Below are positions 18,295-27,741 of a stretch of DNA of 40,676 nucleotides, piece by piece; the stretch's first letter is position 1, and each line of letters starts with the position of its first letter. Under the pieces are notes generated by a model that was given only the letters and a program-made list of their open reading frames with translations, did no database searches and was not told the origin of the DNA. The stretch spans positions 1 to 40,676 of the forward strand of contig JAIEPP010000191.1 of NCBI GenBank assembly GCA_019748335.1, read 5' to 3'. The translations under genes and the position numbers were made by a program. Source of the stretch: Xanthobacteraceae bacterium (lineage in GTDB: Bacteria; Pseudomonadota; Alphaproteobacteria; Rhizobiales; Xanthobacteraceae).

Positions 18295-19305
18295 TCATTC
18301 CGCTGCCACGGGTCGCGCGGCACTTCCCGACGGCGCGCGGCCCTTAGCCTGTTCTTCCTCGACCCACAGCGAGTGATGCTCCTTGGCCCAGTTGAGGTCG
18401 ACCTCGCCGGTACCCATCGCATCGAACGCGCCCTCCATCCCGACCGAGCCGATGTAGATATGGGCCAGCATGGCAGCGATGAACAGCATCGCGATCACGG
18501 CATGGATCACAGTCCAGAACTGCAACTCCGTGACGTTGGCAGGAATATACGGGAACAGCATGAACCAGCCGGACACCGACATCAGCGCGCCGCCAATGAT
18601 CACGATCCAGAAAATGCCCTTCTGGCCAGCATTGAAGCGATGGGCCGGCGGATGCTGTCCTTTGGACAGGAGACCACCACCCTGCTTGATCCAGTCCAGG
18701 TCGAGCTTGCCGGGGATGTTATCCTTGATCCAGATCAGGAACATGATGATCAGGCCAAGCATGAAGGGAAACGCCAGATAGTCATGGGCGTATTTGCCGT
18801 AAGCCGACATGGTGGCGAAAGCGTTCGCGCCGAACAGCGGCAAAATCAGGATCCGGCCGAAGCTGATGTTGAGTCCCGACAGGGCCAATACAATGAAGCA
18901 ACTTGCCGTCAGCCAGTGGGTGAAGCGCTCGAAGCTGGCAAAGCGCAGAAGTTTGGCGCCAGAAAACCCGTGATCGATGCGAATGCGCCCGCGCACCAGC
19001 AGGAAGATTGCGAGCAGAGCCAGCATGCCGATGATGGCGACGCCGCCGATGATCGGCAGCTTGCTGCGATGAAAATCGCGCCAGTCGCGCCCCGCAGGCT
19101 GAATCAGGCTGGACGCCATGGCGTCGGGGATCGTTATCCGCCCGGTGATCTTGTCACCTTCCTTCAACGCGTTCAGGAGCTTGTCTTCCTGAACCGCTTC
19201 GGCGGTCGGCTTGAACGAAAGCTGGGCGACGGCGGGATTCGCGAACACGAACAGCAGTGCAATGGCGGCGCATAGCGCCCGGAGGTTTGAGATAGAGCTT
19301 GGCAT
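18295..19305 (-). CDS. Formate dehydrogenase gamma subunit (cytochrome b556)
   Basis: LLRFASFERFTHWLTASCFIVLALSGLNISFGR...YLAFPFMLGLIIMFLIWIKDNIP; C-terminal HAVIAMLFIAAMLAHIYIGSVGMEGAFDAMGTGEVDLNWAKEHH. Confidence 0.94.
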   Translation of the reverse strand: MPSSISNLRALCAAIALLFVFANPAVAQLSFKPTAEAVQEDKLLNALKEGDKITGRITIPDAMASSLIQPAGRDWRDFHRSKLPIIGGVAIIGMLALLAIFLLVRGRIRIDHGFSGAKLLRFASFERFTHWLTASCFIVLALSGLNISFGRILILPLFGANAFATMSAYGKYAHDYLAFPFMLGLIIMFLIWIKDNIPGKLDLDWIKQGGGLLSKGQHPPAHRFNAGQKGIFWIVIIGGALMSVSGWFMLFPYIPANVTELQFWTVIHAVIAMLFIAAMLAHIYIGSVGMEGAFDAMGTGEVDLNWAKEHHSLWVEEEQAKGRAPSGSAARPVAAE

Positions 19306-19371: not shown

Positions 19372-19968
19372 TCAGCCGGTCGGCGAATCGCTGTAGGCGG
19401 TTTTCCAGCCCCACATGCCCGAACCGTAACCGCGCTTCATCACGCGCTCCTTGTAGATTTCGGCGATGATCGCGCCGTCGCCGGCAAGCAGCGACTTGGT
19501 CGAGCACATCTCGGCACAAATCGGCAGCTTGCCCTCGGCGAGACGGTTGGCGCCGTATTTGGCATACTCGGCCCGCGTCGAGTCCGCCTCCGGCCCACCC
19601 GCGCAATAGGTGCATTTGTCCATCTTGCCGCGCGATCCGAAGTTGCCCACCTTCGGATATTGCGGTGCGCCGAACGGACAAGCATAAAAACAATAGCCAC
19701 AGCCGATGCAGAGGTCCTTGGAGTGAAGCACCACGCCGTCGGCGGTCGTATAGAAACACGACACCGGACATACCGCCGCGCAAGGCGCATCGGTACAGTG
19801 CATACAGGCCATGGACACCGAGCGTTCGCCGGGCTTGCCGTCATTGATGGTGACGACGCGGCGGCGATTGATGCCCCACGGCACTTCATGTTCGTTCTTG
19901 CAGGCTGTCACGCAAGCGTTGCATTCGATGCAACGGTCGGCATCACAGAGAAATTTGACGCGAGCCAT
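19372..19968 (-). CDS. fdh3B: Formate dehydrogenase beta subunit (FDH3-type), polyferredoxin
   Basis: CDADRCIECNACVTACKNEHEVPWGINRRRVVTINDGKPGERSVSMACMHCTDAPCAAVCPVSCFY...CIGCGYCFYACPFGAPQ. Confidence 0.94.
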   Translation of the reverse strand: MARVKFLCDADRCIECNACVTACKNEHEVPWGINRRRVVTINDGKPGERSVSMACMHCTDAPCAAVCPVSCFYTTADGVVLHSKDLCIGCGYCFYACPFGAPQYPKVGNFGSRGKMDKCTYCAGGPEADSTRAEYAKYGANRLAEGKLPICAEMCSTKSLLAGDGAIIAEIYKERVMKRGYGSGMWGWKTAYSDSPTG

Positions 19969-19982
19969 GATCTATTCTCCCC

Positions 19983-22949
19983 TCACGCCGATTGGATCTG
20001 GCACAGGGTCACCTTGCCCTCGTGCATGCCGGTGACCGGATCGTAGCCGTAGGACGTCAGCGTATTCACGCTTTCGCCCAGCACGATCGGATCGTTGCCC
20101 TTTGGATATTTGCCGCGCTGGTCGACGCCCTGGAACCAGCCGGCGAAGTGGAACGGCATGAACGCCACGCCCTTGCCGACGCGGTCGGTGACCAGCGCCT
20201 TGACGCGGGCCTTCGAGCTGTTTTCCGGGCCGTAGACCCAGACCCAGCCGCCATCCTTGATGCCGCGCTCGCTGGCGTCCGAGGTATTGACCTCGACGAA
20301 CATGTCCTGCTGCAACTCAGCGAGCCAGCGGTTCGACCGGGTTTCCTCGCCACCGCCTTCGTATTCCACCAGACGTCCCGAGGTCAGGATGATCGGGAAT
20401 TGCTTGGCAAGCCCCTTGTCCACCGCCGCCTTTTGAATCGCGAAGCCGAGATTGGCCATGCGGAACTGGCGTCCGTCCGGCCGCGTCGGGTATTTGGCGA
20501 CGAGTTCGGGACGCGCGGTATAGATCGGCTCGCGATGAACCGGCACCGGATCCGGCAGATTCCATGCCACCGCGCGGGCCTTGCCGTTGCCATACGCCAT
20601 CACGCCATGCTCCAGCGTGACGCGAATGATGCCGCCCGACAGATCGACCGCCCAGCCGACGCCGTCGGGACTATTGCCACCGATCTTGTTGATGGTGGCG
20701 AGTTCGGCTTCTGTGAGGTCCTTGTCCCAGCCGAGTTTCTTCAGCACGCCGTAGGTAAATTCCGGGTAGCCGTCGGTCAGTTCGGAGCCCTTGCTGTAGG
20801 AACCTTCGGCCAACAAATTGACGGACTTGACCGACCCGTCCGGCTGCTTTTCCTCGTAGACCACGCCGAACCGCGCACGGAAAGTGCCGCCGCCGTCCTT
20901 GGCGTGAAGGTTGGTATTGTAGAGTGTGTGCGTCCCCGGATGCTTGATCTGCGGCGTGCCCCAGCACGGCCACGGCAGGCCGTAATAATCGCCGCCGATG
21001 TCGGGTTCGTCGGCCTTGGCGCGCAGCGTTACCAGGTCGAATTTGCCCTGGTTCTTCATGTGCGCCTTCAGCCGCTCCGGCGACTGGCCGGAATAGCCGG
21101 TCGAAAATCCGCCGCGGTTGATTTCGCGCAGCAGGTCCTCCGAAGACGGATGATTGTTCTCCACCTTGATGTTCTTGAACATCGGATCAGCGAAACCGAG
21201 CTTCTTGGAAAGTAGATAGATGATCTCGTAATCGTCCTTCGATTCGAAGATCGGCTTGACCACCTGCTCACCCCACTGCAGCGAGCGGTTCGACGCGGTG
21301 CGCGAGCCCGAGGTCTCGAACTGGGTGCAGGCCGGCAGCAGATAGGTGCCGTTCTTGCGCTCCGAGATCGCCGCGAACGTGGTCGGATGCGGGTCGGCGA
21401 CGACAAGCAACTCGAGCTTCTCGATGCCCTTCACCATTTCGGTCATGCGCGGCACAGTGTTGCCGCCGTGCCCCATGATGAACATCGCCTTCAGGCTGTC
21501 GCGCTGATCGACATCATCGGGGTTGGCGAGCGTGGCATCGAACCAGCGGGTCGACGGGATACCAGGCAGTTCCATGTTCTGCTTGCGGGTACGGGCCGGA
21601 CGGCCCGCTTTCGCCGGCACTTCGTCGAAGCGCGCCTGGAGATAATCATATTCGACTTCCCAAACCCGCGCCCAGTGCTTCCAGGCGCCTTCGACCAGGC
21701 CGTAATAGAGCGGCAGCGTCGTGATATCGAGACCGATATCGGTCGCGCCCTGCACGTTGCAGTGGCCGCGGAAGATGTTGGCGCCGCCGCCGAAGGTGCC
21801 GACATTGCCGGTTGCCAGCAGAAGATTGCAATAGGCCCGGACGTTGGCGGTGCCGACGGTGTGCTGGGTGCCGCCCATGCACCAGATGAAGGTCGAGGGC
21901 CGTTGCTTGGCAAAGGTCTCTGCGACCTTCTTCACTTGCTCGCCCGGAATGCCGGTAACGCGTTCGACCTCTTCCGGCGTCCACTTGGCGACTTCGGCGC
22001 GGATCTGGTCCATGCCGTAGACGCGCTGGGCGATGAATTGCTTGTCTTCCCAGCCATTATTGAAGATGTGGTGCAGCATACCCCAGATCACCGCGATGTC
22101 GGTGCCGCTGCGGAAGCGGACATATTCGGTGGCATGGGCCGCGGTGCGGGTGAAGCGCGGGTCGAGCACGAAGACGTTGGCGCGGTTGATCTCCTTGCCG
22201 GTCAGGATGTGCTGCAGCGACACCGGATGCGCTTCGGCAGCATTCGATCCCATGAAGACGATGGTCTTCGAGTTTCTGATATCGTTGTAGGAATTGGTCA
22301 TCGCGCCGTAGCCCCAGGTGTTGGCGACGCCGGCGACGGTAGTAGAGTGGCAGATGCGGGCCTGGTGATCCACGGAGTTGGTACCCCAGAACGCCGCGAA
22401 CTTGCGGAACAGATAACCGCCTTCATTGGAGAATTTCGCGGAGCCGAGCAGATAGACGGAATCTGCACCGGACTTGGCGCGAATCTCCAGCATCTTGTCA
22501 CCGATCTCGTTGATGGCCTGGTCCCACGACACCTTCTGCCACTCGCCGTTGACCAGCTTCATCGGATATTTCAGGCGGCGGTCGCCATGCACGAGTTCGC
22601 GCACCGACGCGCCCTTGGCGCAATGCGAGCCGCGGTTGATCGGGCTGTCCCAGGCCGGCTCCTGGCCGACCCAGACACCGTTCTGAACTTCGGCAATGAC
22701 GGTGCAGCCGACCGAGCAATGGGTGCAGATGTTCTTTTTGATTTCGGTCGGGGCGCCGACGATTTTCGGACCGGCCGCTGCCTTGCGCACCGAGCCGAGC
22801 GGCATCAACCCCAATGCCGCGCCCGCGCCTGCGGCCAGACCGGACCGGCGCAGAAACGTGCGGCGGTCGAGAACCCCCGATGCCAGGCCGGCGGCGACAC
22901 CCTGCAAACGCGCCTTGCCTGCGGATCCATCTCTTCGCTTCATCAACAT
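19983..22949 (-). CDS. Formate dehydrogenase alpha subunit, molybdopterin/tungstopterin, Tat-exported, Cys variant
   Basis: Tat motif RRTFLRRSGLAAG, [4Fe-4S] motif CTHCSVGCTVIAEVQ, and SVDHQARICHSTTVAGVANTWGYGAMTNSYNDI with Cys at the position occupied by Sec in FdnG/FdoG. ORF start trimmed to MLMKRRDGS. Confidence 0.94.
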   Translation of the reverse strand: MLMKRRDGSAGKARLQGVAAGLASGVLDRRTFLRRSGLAAGAGAALGLMPLGSVRKAAAGPKIVGAPTEIKKNICTHCSVGCTVIAEVQNGVWVGQEPAWDSPINRGSHCAKGASVRELVHGDRRLKYPMKLVNGEWQKVSWDQAINEIGDKMLEIRAKSGADSVYLLGSAKFSNEGGYLFRKFAAFWGTNSVDHQARICHSTTVAGVANTWGYGAMTNSYNDIRNSKTIVFMGSNAAEAHPVSLQHILTGKEINRANVFVLDPRFTRTAAHATEYVRFRSGTDIAVIWGMLHHIFNNGWEDKQFIAQRVYGMDQIRAEVAKWTPEEVERVTGIPGEQVKKVAETFAKQRPSTFIWCMGGTQHTVGTANVRAYCNLLLATGNVGTFGGGANIFRGHCNVQGATDIGLDITTLPLYYGLVEGAWKHWARVWEVEYDYLQARFDEVPAKAGRPARTRKQNMELPGIPSTRWFDATLANPDDVDQRDSLKAMFIMGHGGNTVPRMTEMVKGIEKLELLVVADPHPTTFAAISERKNGTYLLPACTQFETSGSRTASNRSLQWGEQVVKPIFESKDDYEIIYLLSKKLGFADPMFKNIKVENNHPSSEDLLREINRGGFSTGYSGQSPERLKAHMKNQGKFDLVTLRAKADEPDIGGDYYGLPWPCWGTPQIKHPGTHTLYNTNLHAKDGGGTFRARFGVVYEEKQPDGSVKSVNLLAEGSYSKGSELTDGYPEFTYGVLKKLGWDKDLTEAELATINKIGGNSPDGVGWAVDLSGGIIRVTLEHGVMAYGNGKARAVAWNLPDPVPVHREPIYTARPELVAKYPTRPDGRQFRMANLGFAIQKAAVDKGLAKQFPIILTSGRLVEYEGGGEETRSNRWLAELQQDMFVEVNTSDASERGIKDGGWVWVYGPENSSKARVKALVTDRVGKGVAFMPFHFAGWFQGVDQRGKYPKGNDPIVLGESVNTLTSYGYDPVTGMHEGKVTLCQIQSA

Positions 22950-22962
22950 GTGCGTGTTCCCA

Positions 22963-23187
22963 TCAATAACGGTTGACGCGGTAGTAGTTCTTGACGTGAT
23001 CGGTCTCCTTGTAGCGGGCCTTGACGCGCTCGGCCTGCGACTCGTCCGCCTTCGCCTCACCGCCCGCCAGCGGCACCACCGCCGCCGCCGCAACCACCGA
23101 TCCACTCATCATGAAGAAGCGGCGACGGTTGAGTGCCTTCGCATCCTGCGGCTTGCTGCCGGGCGCCTTTTCGGATGGCTTGCTCAT
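22963..23187 (-). CDS. Small twin-arginine signal protein of formate dehydrogenase loci (TIGR02811-like)
   Basis: MSKPSEKAPGSKPQDAKALNRRRFFMMSGSVVAAAAVVPLAGGEAKADESQAERVKARYKETDHVKNYYRVNRY; 13 bp upstream of FDH alpha. Confidence 0.85.
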   Translation of the reverse strand: MSKPSEKAPGSKPQDAKALNRRRFFMMSGSVVAAAAVVPLAGGEAKADESQAERVKARYKETDHVKNYYRVNRY

Positions 23188-23227: not shown

Positions 23228-24013
23228 TCACTCCGACAGCGTAAAAGCCTCGGACTCCAGTTCCATAAAAACACGGCCGACGCGGCCGACGGCCCGGTAG
23301 AAGTTGGCCGCACGCGACATCTCCAGATCGGCAAACATCCGCGCTGCCCAAGGCTTCAGGTGCCGTTCGAAGAATCGCGCCTGTTCGGCCAGGTCAGCCT
23401 CAAAGTCGCCGCGCGCCAGGCCGGCCATGACCTCGAGCAGGATCGCGACATGATCTTCCGGCTCGCGCGAGGTGCCCGCTCGTTCGATCCCAAGCAGATC
23501 CAGATCTTCGCGGACGCGCGCCAGTGGGCGCTCGTGCAGGAAGCCGGTCAGGTAATAGGAGGCATAGGGCAGCAGCTCGCCGCGGCCGAGCCCGATGAAC
23601 AGGTCGAAGAATTCCTTGCTCACGGCTCGGTTATCCGCCGCTGCTGCGGCTGCGGCGAGTTCGATATGCGCTATGCCGAGATCGGAGGCGTCGCCCTTCA
23701 ATGCGGCCACCCGGGCGAGCGTGTCAGCGTCCGGCGCCTTGCCGAGCAGCAGCGACAACAGGCCGTATTCCGCGGCGCGCAGCGCATCAATCTCGTCGAT
23801 TTCGGGGTTGGATGACACCTGAGCCTCGAATCCGTAGAGATCGGGGCGAAGCACGGAACGCTGCACACGCGTCGTTGCCTCGACGGCGAGAACTCGTTCT
23901 GCCGGAATGCGCGACCACGCCGAAACCGAAGGTTGGGCAATGCCGATCGCTCGCGCCAGACGTGCGACACCACCTGCGGCCTTGATTGCCTGTTCCAGTC
24001 CGGCGTCACGCAT
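23228..24013 (-). CDS. HTH (YdaS/Cro-like) - TorD/DmsD-type chaperone fusion
   Basis: N-terminus LEQAIKAAGGVARLARAIGIAQPSVSAWSRIPAERVLAVEATT is a YdaS-like HTH. C-terminus LRAAEYGLLSLLLGKAPD...PYASYYLTGFLHERPLARVREDLDLLGIER...EPEDHVAILLEVMAGL is a TorD-family chaperone. Confidence 0.85.
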   Translation of the reverse strand: MRDAGLEQAIKAAGGVARLARAIGIAQPSVSAWSRIPAERVLAVEATTRVQRSVLRPDLYGFEAQVSSNPEIDEIDALRAAEYGLLSLLLGKAPDADTLARVAALKGDASDLGIAHIELAAAAAAADNRAVSKEFFDLFIGLGRGELLPYASYYLTGFLHERPLARVREDLDLLGIERAGTSREPEDHVAILLEVMAGLARGDFEADLAEQARFFERHLKPWAARMFADLEMSRAANFYRAVGRVGRVFMELESEAFTLSE

Positions 24014-24072
24014 GGTGCACCCGACTTCTCCCCGCCCGCTTGCGCCCCTTATTCGAGCATACGATTTGGAAC

Positions 24073-24119
24073 TGGAATTATTCCAATCCCAAATTTGTAA
24101 CATAGGGTTTGCCTATGTT
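24073..24119. promoter_or_regulatory. Paired palindromes in the AT-rich promoter region of the HTH-TorD/FDH operon
   Basis: TGGAAT-t-ATTCCA (24073-24085) and AACATAGG-gtttg-CCTATGTT (24099-24119), both perfect inverted repeats, in the 122-bp gap between the DUF3306 gene and the HTH-TorD gene. Confidence 0.65.
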
Positions 24120-24135
24120 CCCAAAAAACTTTTGT

Positions 24136-24816
24136 CTAATCAGTCGGTTTTGCCGAGCCATGGCGTCGCACCGGCTGCTGCGGTGCAATAGAACCGAGGG
24201 CCTCAGAGTCTCTCTTCTGCCCAACCTCGATACCAGCCCCCGCCTCCCGATTCGAAGGATTCTGCTCCGCCGAAAGCGGCATGCTCAATCTCAGCGGTTG
24301 GTCCGACAGGCCCGGTGGTTGCTCGCCGGTTGGCGCGCGGTCGCTCGCCAACTCTGTTGGATCCTGAGCGGTCGATGCCGAAGGCTCGACCACGGTTTCG
24401 CCAGTGCCCATGATCTGGGAAACCAGCCGCGCGACGTCCATGCCGGAGCCGATCTCACTGTTGCCCGGCACGCCCCCCGGCGTGTTCCAGTCATAGGCGT
24501 ATTCGAGCGCGGGATTGACGTAATTTCGGATGGCAGGATCCAGCGCCCAAGACTTTCGCAAGGCCGCATTACGCAGATGTTCGGGAACGCCTTTGCGCAG
24601 AAACCCGGTGATGTCGGTCGTCGGCGTCAGCTCATCGAGCGTTGGCAAGCTGGAAAGATCGAACTCCTCCGGAGCCTCAGCTTCAACGGCAGATTCGGCG
24701 GCGACGTCGGTTTCGGCAACCGGCGCGTCACGCTCCGGCTGTTTCGTCTCCTGCTTGCGCTGCGACCATCGCGCCAGAAAGCCCTTGTCTTCGTTGCCGT
24801 GGTCCGGAGCACTCAT
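24136..24816 (-). CDS. DUF3306 domain protein
   Basis: GFLARWSQRKQ...FDLSSLPTLDELTPTTDITGFLRKGVPEHLRNAALRKSWALDPAIRNYVNPALEYAYDWNTPGGVPG is typical DUF3306. Confidence 0.9.
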   Translation of the reverse strand: MSAPDHGNEDKGFLARWSQRKQETKQPERDAPVAETDVAAESAVEAEAPEEFDLSSLPTLDELTPTTDITGFLRKGVPEHLRNAALRKSWALDPAIRNYVNPALEYAYDWNTPGGVPGNSEIGSGMDVARLVSQIMGTGETVVEPSASTAQDPTELASDRAPTGEQPPGLSDQPLRLSMPLSAEQNPSNREAGAGIEVGQKRDSEALGSIAPQQPVRRHGSAKPTD

Positions 24817-25346
24817 GCGCGGCCTTTTCCTTCATCCGGGCCAGGATCCGGCCCACCATTCCCTGGGCCACGCGGGCGGTCGCCGCTGGCGCGATCGCGC
24901 TTGCGCTTATGGAACGCTCGCTCGACATGAAATTCGTCGACAAAGGCGGCGATCCAGGACGCGATCTCAGCCGACATCGGGACGGTGCCGATGACGTCGC
25001 AACCGCTTTCAAAGATCGCTTCCCCTTCGGTCGGATCGGCGGTGACCTTGGTCAGTTCGAGTTCGGCGCCGCCGTCCTGACGCCGCAGCGCGACCCAGAT
25101 GCGCGGCTCGCCGTCGGCGAGGTTGTCGCGATAATTCGCGGTGTCGGAACTGAACAGGTCGATGCTGGCCGAACCCGCGTAATATGTCGTTGCGTCGGAT
25201 TCGGCCGACAGCACGGTCCACGGCGCGGTCGCAGGTACTTCATCGAGAACCATCGCCGGCGACCACACATGGTCGATCCAGGGATTGTCGATCGCCCGGC
25301 GACGCACCACCACGCCAACTTCGCGCGATGCCTCCGTCATCGCCAT
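24813..25346 (-). CDS. DUF3305 domain protein
   Basis: VVVRRRAIDNPWIDHVWSPAMVLDEVPATAPWTVL...AELELTKVTADPTEGEAIFESGCDVIGTVPMSAEIASWIAAFVDEFHVERAFHKRKRDR. 4-bp overlap with the DUF3306 gene. Confidence 0.9.
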   Translation of the reverse strand: MAMTEASREVGVVVRRRAIDNPWIDHVWSPAMVLDEVPATAPWTVLSAESDATTYYAGSASIDLFSSDTANYRDNLADGEPRIWVALRRQDGGAELELTKVTADPTEGEAIFESGCDVIGTVPMSAEIASWIAAFVDEFHVERAFHKRKRDRASGDRPRGPGNGGPDPGPDEGKGRA

Positions 25347-25371
25347 AACAGGCCCTCCGTCCGCCGACCGG

Positions 25372-26394
25372 TCATGCCACATTCGCCTTTGGTGCAAGCG
25401 GCAGCCCGGCGAGGAGATTTTGCGGCTTCAGGCGCACGACCTTGTCCGCGCCCATAGCCAGAATGAGGTAGACCGGCCTGGTACCGACGCGTTCGTCGAC
25501 CAGCCGCGTGTCCTCAATCGTCAAACGCATCAGGGCGACGATGCGTTCCGAGGCGTTGGCGTCCACCACAGCACCGTTCCACAACGCATTGCCCAGTCTG
25601 GTGCCCTCGCTATCGAGGCCGACGAACCAGCGCCAGTCGCGGTCGTCGATCGAGGCCACCGTCTCGACGCTGACGGCCACACCGAGCAGATGGGCAATCC
25701 ATCGTTCGATCACCCGGCAGAGCCCGGCGCGCGCCTTCGGATTGCCGCCGATGTTCATTACCATCGCATGGGCGTCGGAACGCGACCAGTAGGTCCAGGC
25801 GTTCTCGTCGTCCATCACATCCATCTCGCCAAACGCCTTCGGCGGCGCCAGCATCGCCGTAAGCGGCGACGAATGCAGGTCGTGCTCGGCGTGTTGCTGC
25901 GCCTCAACGACCTCGGCATCGGCAAGCAGCAGTGTACCGTCATGCACGGTCGCCTGCTGGCTGCGATAGAACAGTTCGGCCGCGCGCAGCATATAGGGAT
26001 CGTCGCAACCCTCGAGCGCGTTACGCAGGATCAGATGGCAGAGCTGGGAGAGAAAGATAGGTGGCAGATCGCTGGCGCCATGACGGACGAGGCTCACGTA
26101 TACGGCCTCGAGCGAGGGGGCGGCGACCAGCCGGTCGCGGAAGTTGATCATGAAGGTCCAGTTCTCGCGCGCATCGGGGTCGGCGACCGCAGCGATGTCG
26201 GTTTTCGAAACCGGACGAAGGGGATCCGCCAGCAGGCCGGCGTGCAGGTTTCGCTCGGCCTCGCAAGCGTCAGCCGGCGGCATCAATTCGGGCCGCGCCA
26301 GATAGGCCATGATAAGTTCGGGGGTCGCGACCAGCCCGCCATGATCGGCGCGGCGCGTCAGGTGATGGCCCGAGGCTACCCAGAATTCCCTCAT
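25372..26394 (-). CDS. DUF6352-like protein (340 aa, uncharacterised)
   Basis: MREFWVASGHHLTRRADHGGLVATPELIMAYLARPELMPPADACEAER...; position in FDH accessory clusters. Family assignment from memory. Confidence 0.75.
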   Translation of the reverse strand: MREFWVASGHHLTRRADHGGLVATPELIMAYLARPELMPPADACEAERNLHAGLLADPLRPVSKTDIAAVADPDARENWTFMINFRDRLVAAPSLEAVYVSLVRHGASDLPPIFLSQLCHLILRNALEGCDDPYMLRAAELFYRSQQATVHDGTLLLADAEVVEAQQHAEHDLHSSPLTAMLAPPKAFGEMDVMDDENAWTYWSRSDAHAMVMNIGGNPKARAGLCRVIERWIAHLLGVAVSVETVASIDDRDWRWFVGLDSEGTRLGNALWNGAVVDANASERIVALMRLTIEDTRLVDERVGTRPVYLILAMGADKVVRLKPQNLLAGLPLAPKANVA

Positions 26395-26966
26395 TTGCGG
26401 TTCCCGGTCATGCGGTCGGCTCCCATCAATCCCAGCAGATCGACCTCCTCGGCAGGTTCATCGTCGCCTTCGACTTCGTGAAAGGTAAAGGCGCGGGCAT
26501 GCGCGGGCAACCGATCGCCATCGGCTGCAGCCTCGCGCGGCTTGAGGGTGCGAAAACGCTCGCGGATTTCACCGTCCTCGATGCTGCGTTGCACGGCGAG
26601 CAAGGTTTGGGTCGGGTGGTCGCACAACGAGGCCGCAAACGCGACCTCTTCCTCGGCGGCGCCGCGCGCGGCTTCCATATCCGGCGCGCCGAACTTCTCC
26701 AACAATTGCACGGCGAGGCGCGCAACCACGGCTTGCCGCTCCACCTCCGTCGCTTCGGTCACGATCGCGAGCGTGGACCAGCCCAGACTGTCGATCCCAA
26801 GAAAGCCGGAGCGCAGCGCCACGCGCTGCTTTTGAGCGAGCGCGACTGGATCCTGGTTCCAGAATACGAACGCGCCGGAAACAGCCCATTCGCCGGGTTC
26901 GGCGGCACGCTCGAACACGAAGGTATCCGATGGGTCGAGCCTGATGGTTCGCGGCAATTTCAACAT
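26391..26966 (-). CDS. DUF6505-like protein (uncharacterised)
   Basis: MLKLPRTIRLDPSDTFVFERAAEPGEWAVSGAFVFW...LGWSTLAIVTEA. 4-bp overlap with the downstream DUF6352-like gene. Family assignment from memory. Confidence 0.72.
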   Translation of the reverse strand: MLKLPRTIRLDPSDTFVFERAAEPGEWAVSGAFVFWNQDPVALAQKQRVALRSGFLGIDSLGWSTLAIVTEATEVERQAVVARLAVQLLEKFGAPDMEAARGAAEEEVAFAASLCDHPTQTLLAVQRSIEDGEIRERFRTLKPREAAADGDRLPAHARAFTFHEVEGDDEPAEEVDLLGLMGADRMTGNRK

Positions 26967-26973
26967 GTCCGCC

Positions 26974-27741
26974 TCATCCGAGTTTCGGACCGCGCGAATG
27001 CGGATCATACCAGTCCGCCTTCGCCAGCGCATCCACAAGGCTGGTCCGGTCGGGCGGCCCGCTGCCGGCGGGCAGCTTGACCAGAAGATCGCCGTTGAGG
27101 TCGATTTCCCGGCGCTCGCCGACTTTTCGCTTGGAAAGCCGTTCCAAATAGTCCTTGGCGATGACCTCGAAGCCGCATTCGTTCCAGCGGTCGAACGCTG
27201 TCATCAGATGGCGGGCGAAGCTGCCGATGATGGCGTCGGTGTCGATCATCTCAAAACCTGCGCTCAGCAGCGAAACGCCCGATGCAGCCTCCACCTCCTC
27301 GATATGCGCCATGTCGGCGGCGCGCAGGATCACGCCGAACACCAGCCACGCCGGCACGTCGGCCTCACCGCAATCGGGCGGCCAGCCGAGCCGCGCGCCG
27401 CCGAGCAATCCAGCGTCGAACCTGATCGCATCGGGCCAGTCGAAACTCACGTCCCGCTCGGGCGGGCAATGGGCCGCAATCGCGTCACCCATGGCGTTCA
27501 TGCCGGCGAAGAAGGCCCTGCGGGCCGAGTTCAGCGGTTCGTCGGGTTCGAGAACCACGGCGAATTCGACCAGATCGTAGCGCCGCACCCAGATCAGCGT
27601 CCCGGCACCCGATGCGGCGGCGATTTCGCATCCATGGGCGAACACGTCGCCGAGTTCGCGTAACGCGACCAAAGTATAACCGGGGGGCAGGTCGAGTGCT
27701 TGTTCCGCCCCCGCGAGACTCGACGTCATCGAAAGGCTCAT
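26974..27741 (-). CDS. Biotin/lipoate A/B protein ligase-like protein (DUF4444 type)
   Basis: LDLPPGYTLVALRELGDVFAHGCEIAAASGAGTLIWVRRYDLVEFAVVLEPDEPLNSARRAFFAGMNAMGDAIAAHCPPERDVSFDWPDAIRFD; C-terminal FEVIAKDYLERL...REIDLNGDLLVKL as in the ligase/BirA C-terminal fold. Confidence 0.78.
   Translation of the reverse strand: MSLSMTSSLAGAEQALDLPPGYTLVALRELGDVFAHGCEIAAASGAGTLIWVRRYDLVEFAVVLEPDEPLNSARRAFFAGMNAMGDAIAAHCPPERDVSFDWPDAIRFDAGLLGGARLGWPPDCGEADVPAWLVFGVILRAADMAHIEEVEAASGVSLLSAGFEMIDTDAIIGSFARHLMTAFDRWNECGFEVIAKDYLERLSKRKVGERREIDLNGDLLVKLPAGSGPPDRTSLVDALAKADWYDPHSRGPKLG

Follow-up and report, generated by a model that had tools for sequence, protein, structure and literature searches.

Chaperones of the TorD/DmsD/NarJ type are already associated with formate dehydrogenase (FDH), and a survey of the NarJ family describes a TorDfdh clade within FDH operons (PMC4464133). 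A review of molybdoenzyme maturation names no regulator role (PMC10609526). The other family of relevance here is that of the YdaS/Cro repressors, which includes the Xfaso1 Cro protein 3bd1, P22 Cro and the YdaS of Rac-type prophages; YdaS is described as the equivalent of Cro and, despite its Pfam name, is probably no toxin (PMC9986795). How cells balance the output of an exported enzyme rich in cofactors against their capacity for assembling it is an open question.

The locus considered here lies in a stretch of 40.7 kb (the window), its closest named relatives being Bradyrhizobium, and it encodes a single protein with features of both families (Table 1). As in the described chaperones, there is a TorD-type domain in an FDH operon with sequence or fold likeness to DmsD, TorD and YcdY; what the fusion adds is a Cro-like helix-turn-helix (HTH) domain with a matching operator, whereas the text of the NarJ family survey names neither an HTH nor a fusion (PMC4464133). 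With the YdaS/Cro repressors it shares the sequence and fold of the HTH, including the LRPD tail, and a short site in the form of an inverted repeat, placed across the promoter in some lineages, but its HTH is fused to a chaperone domain and belongs to a metabolic operon rather than to a phage switch. Chaperone-linked regulatory circuits (PMC5105189) offer an analogy. As in toxin-antitoxin-chaperone modules and with type III secretion chaperones that act on regulators, the load of a dedicated chaperone could set the transcription of the client operon; in those circuits the chaperone and the DNA-binding protein are separate polypeptides of unrelated folds, whereas client sensing by HTH-TorD is a proposal. 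Among open-licence papers we found no published description of an HTH-TorD fusion. It would amount to a one-component regulator in which, unusually, a chaperone domain stands where the sensor would be.

Table 1. Features of the FDH locus, in positions of the window.
Feature	Position	Strand	Basis
FDH cytochrome b subunit	18295..19305	-	PF01292 E=7.6e-25
FDH iron-sulfur subunit, four Cys-rich cluster motifs	19372..19968	-	translation read directly
FDH alpha subunit (molybdopterin), RRTFLRRS Tat-type N-terminus	19983..22976	-	TIGR01591 Fdh-alpha E=2e-138, below curated cut-off; Pfam molybdopterin domains
Second operon gene, small protein of 74 aa with a Tat signal (RRRFF motif)	22963..23187	-	translation; kept beside chaperone in relatives
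HTH-TorD fusion gene (261 aa)	23228..24013	-	ORF and translation; Pfam YdaS and Nitrate_red_del
TorD/DmsD-type chaperone domain, residues 74-260	23234..23794	-	PF02613 E=1.5e-30; Foldseek YcdY, DmsD
YdaS/Cro-type HTH domain, residues 4-61	23831..24004	-	PF15943 E=1.6e-15; Cro 3bd1 (sequence and fold)
Recognition helix stretch QPSVSAW, residues 27-33	23915..23935	-	helix 27-31 in model; residue 29 and operator base 4 vary together
Ser29 codon	23927-23929	-	inside recognition helix stretch
IR2, long imperfect palindrome ATTTGGGATTGGAATAATTCCAGTTCCAAAT	24064..24094	-	upstream alignment of clade A
IR1 ATAGGCAAACCCTAT (ATAG-N7-CTAT), probable operator	24102..24116	-	single match in window; tracks HTH across families
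DUF3306 gene, directly upstream of chaperone	24136..24816	-	PF11748, PF11749 (DUF3306/DUF3305 pair); order kept in relatives
DUF3305 gene, preceding DUF3306	24813-25397	-	PF11748, PF11749 (DUF3306/DUF3305 pair)

The fusion protein and its operon

The original prediction, that a TorD-type chaperone is here joined to a DNA-binding HTH, is borne out by profile, sequence and fold alike. In Pfam, residues 6-61 match YdaS_toxin (PF15943) above the cut-off, with a further match of the HTH part to P22_Cro (1e-7), and residues 111-227 match Nitrate_red_del (PF02613, the TorD/NarJ family) well above it; the NCBIfam matches, to the carph-isopro domain (3e-5) for the HTH part and to the TorD equivalog (3e-16), stay below their curated cut-offs. 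Sequence matches in the PDB lead from the HTH part to the Cro protein 3bd1 and from the C-terminal part to DmsD/TorD. The AlphaFold model (mean pLDDT 87) has the two predicted domains, with HTH helices at 4-13, 16-23, 27-31 (the recognition helix) and 38-48, then a low-confidence linker at about 63-72 and an all-helical domain. When searched with Foldseek, the N-terminal part, anticipated to fold as an HTH, finds the Xfaso1 Cro protein (TM-score by target 0.80, rmsd 1.7 A), and the C-terminal part finds YcdY and DmsD. The EPEDH motif of the TorD/DmsD-type domain is invariant in our alignment. Because 27 loci of our first sample have the full-length fusion, it is no assembly artefact. An upstream ATG at 24103 was rejected as the start, since it falls within IR1 and conservation of the N-terminus sets in at 24013. 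A Pfam scan of nine neighbouring ORFs gave no match to a YdaT-like partner.

As had been proposed, the FDH structural operon opens with the fusion gene: the order is chaperone, small Tat protein, FDH alpha, beta and cytochrome b. The DUF3305 and DUF3306 genes lie upstream on the same strand, and 122 bp separate DUF3306 from the chaperone gene. In keeping with the TorD/NarJ family, a Tat-exported molybdoenzyme is encoded in the same operon, namely the FDH alpha subunit with its RR motif, which is the probable client of the fused chaperone. Genes matching the Pfam families DUF3305, DUF6352 and DUF6505, upstream on the same strand (24813-27038), cluster with the FDH operon and are perhaps FDH assembly genes. 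Most of the loci whose chaperone has no HTH share the order DUF3305-DUF3306-chaperone-FDH; in one same-genus pair of this kind (L028 and L029) the TorD genes follow DUF3305/DUF3306 and have no adjacent FDH alpha gene.

An inverted repeat that follows the HTH

Alignment of the regions in front of the relatives' chaperone genes revealed an inverted repeat, IR1, which in the window lies in the gap that separates DUF3306 from the chaperone gene and has a symmetry that reaches AACATAGG..CCTATGTT at 24099-24119. The pattern ATAG-N7-CTAT has one match in the window as against 0.04 expected. The stretch 24014-24135, proposed earlier for mobility-shift assays, does contain this probable operator.

The comparison extends to about 170 relatives in all, most of their loci having been fetched after the motif was first defined. 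Of the first 32 type I fused loci, other families among them, 31 had IR1, and all 26 HTH-less loci lacked it. Three held-out sets gave the same picture: the site was found in all three of L084-L086, in 59 of the 60 usable Ser-type loci among 80 named loci (the exception being L168), and, in a third set, 7/7 loci had the site expected for their helix class while 0/5 HTH-less loci had one. The two Ser-type exceptions overall are L009, with one mismatch, and L168, with no site. As the HTH-less loci mostly share the operon layout and have no site, IR1 is not an effect of operon context.

With regard to the YdaS/Cro family, whose members have a short palindromic site near their own promoter, the comparative evidence points to a site of the same kind here, and its symmetry suggests that the HTH acts as a dimer. 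In three loci (L031, L034 and L159) a site of the IR1 type occurs in two copies, exact or with one mismatch, and binding could be cooperative there. A scan for a second target of the extended site in the same genome gave four matches against two in the control, none of them convincing; those elsewhere in the genome include one beside a LysR-like gene (L059), one in a coding sequence (L061) and another (L060).

Co-variation of residue 29 and the fourth operator base

With two duplicates and a truncated contig left out, the sequence of the site was found to vary with that of the recognition helix. Helices with Ser29 have ATAG-N7-CTAT upstream in 96/98 loci and those with Thr29 in 3/3, whereas the ATAG form occurs in 0/11 of the loci with Ala29, 10 of which have ATAA-N7-TTAT instead; the loci are related rather than independent, and two supported switches each way are too few for a paired sign test. 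The single Ala-type locus apart, L153, has a hybrid site. Neither form occurs in any of 40 HTH-less loci, and in letter-shuffled upstream regions each motif is found in less than 0.2%. The ATAA motif was defined on the Ala loci themselves, so that the only true held-out case is L177, which holds. The Ala29/ATAA variant has at least two supported origins, one of them within the clade of the window, where its neighbour is an Afipia sequence with Ser and ATAG. Phage HTH repressors owe part of their specificity to the methyl group of the thymine at position 4 (PMC3317979), and, if this can be transferred to HTH-TorD, it would be consistent with an Ala29 that recognises an A-T pair by that methyl group. 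In the Ser/Ala switch nature offers a clean example of a single residue altering one operator base pair.

A second class of fusion, type II, has a different recognition helix (QANVWHW, QGHVWHW or QSHxWHW), a longer loop and no IR1. Its upstream regions carry another site, ACAAA-N4-TTTGT, exact in 13/17 loci and with at most one mismatch in 17/17; the pattern was first seen in three type II loci, the later ones being held out.

Both the presence and the sequence of the operator follow the HTH, so that DNA binding by the HTH, and autoregulation of the operon, are very probable. The predicted role in transcription of its own operon gains strong support from the tracking of IR1 with the HTH and from its co-variation with residue 29. 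Domain make-up, operator, residue-base co-variation and autoregulatory position are all strongly supported on comparative grounds, and we consider it very likely that the HTH-TorD protein is both a molybdoenzyme chaperone and a DNA-binding autoregulator that acts on its own FDH operon through IR1.

Gain and loss of the fusion

An AU test rejects a single clade for the fused sequences (p=1e-8), which disposes of a single origin; the fusion has therefore been gained or lost more than once. One group of seven Beijerinckiaceae loci (within L147-L167), nested in the fused clade, keeps the operon and has neither HTH nor operator. The refuting case named at the outset, in which homologs would keep only the TorD part and lose the recognition helix, is not borne out: that helix is among the best-conserved regions of the fusion protein (dN/dS 0.02-0.07, against 0.11-0.12 for the HTH, 0.35-0.49 for the linker and 0.10-0.16 for the TorD domain). 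The HTH is missing in some lineages, but the operator is missing there too. Our main sampling of loci covers one class, and a phylum sample of 399 genomes contained no full-length fusion outside it.

A possible coupling of transcription to assembly

The arrangement suggests the following scheme. A dimer of the N-terminal Cro-like HTH would bind ATAG-N7-CTAT before its own gene and, from IR1, control the formate dehydrogenase operon, while the TorD domain would handle the Tat-tagged FDH precursor made from that same operon. Binding of the client, or its folding state, might then alter DNA binding by way of the TorD domain: free chaperone would shut the operon and apo-enzyme would release it, a titration loop that could keep chaperone and client balanced. 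Alternatively, it may be the client-loaded chaperone that represses, as a brake on stalled maturation. In its general form, the proposal is of a one-component regulator with a molybdoenzyme assembly chaperone as its sensor, such that the transcription of a respiratory operon is set directly by how much unassembled enzyme its own chaperone carries; within the Alphaproteobacteria the coupling would have arisen, or been re-specified, on several occasions. We put this forward tentatively, as a reading whose chance of being correct is a little under even.

A rival reading is that the HTH autoregulates independently of the state of the chaperone, the fusion serving to fix the level of the protein and the TorD domain contributing dimerisation or co-expression. 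The linker, of low confidence in the model and fast-evolving as it is, would be in keeping with this, and we regard it as a realistic possibility, if somewhat doubtful; the fusion has been kept across families and not split, and its repeated gain or loss implies some benefit, though not sensing specifically. A probable operator defined to the base and its natural specificity variants (Ser29/ATAG, Ala29/ATAA and type II/ACAAA), in a system whose chaperone itself bears the DNA-binding domain, make binding, sign and client sensing directly testable.

Promoter geometry and the remaining alternatives

As to the sign of regulation, consensus matches in eight loci (L031, L032, L035, L084-L086, L122 and L170) place IR1 inside a 16-bp spacer between the -35 and -10 boxes, with a TTG-box to its left and a TAT-box partly built from its right arm; by eye, many type II sites are placed similarly between boxes. 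Repression is likely in some lineages, because the operator there occupies the spacer, where a repressor would block RNA polymerase, and this geometry in other lineages makes HTH-TorD a likely repressor. A consensus scan of the window region found no sigma-70 promoter, and none is clear in the window's own clade.

For the window's lineage an activator, perhaps client-loaded and acting from a site upstream of the -35, has also to be weighed. For many loci of Bradyrhizobium and Xanthobacteraceae, the strongest consensus match to a -35 is a TTG[ACG]C box whose first base lies at +14 or +24/25, counted from the start of the site, and such a downstream placement could suit an activator too. That the core promoter encloses the site in several other lineages speaks against this, and the promoter boxes are consensus matches, none of them in the window; we think activation rather unlikely. 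The distances from IR1 to the best -35 cluster at +14 and +24/25 (L105, L108, L014 and relatives), about one helical turn apart, a spacing that may hint at contact with RNA polymerase.

The possibility that IR1 belongs to some other regulator, such as one of the LysR type, with a coincidental link to the HTH, could draw on the T-N11-A contained in ATAG-N7-CTAT and on the similar extended site beside the LysR-like gene mentioned above. It is highly improbable, since IR1 occurs where the HTH does and changes at its fourth base with residue 29, and we rejected it on the absence of the site from all 40 HTH-less operons, mostly of the same layout. Least probable of all is that the HTH has no function and is merely what remains of a prophage gene that became fused to a chaperone, for while YdaS-type HTHs are typical of prophages and some lineages do without the domain, the strong purifying selection on the recognition helix and the co-variation with the operator argue against it.

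Other conserved elements upstream of the chaperone gene

As the longest palindrome in the region, IR2 was our first choice for the operator of the HTH; it was set aside as restricted to one clade, while IR1 tracks the HTH in all type I lineages. Its core, TTGGAATAATTCCAG, is nearly invariant in the window's clade and conserved there only, and in L101 the repeat changes symmetrically to CTAGAATAATTCTAG. IR2 is probably the site of another regulator, and it may resemble the iron control element of Irr. Upstream of IR1, at 24127-24145, there is also a short palindrome-like box, TTGT[CT]TAGACAAAAG, conserved in the window's clade.
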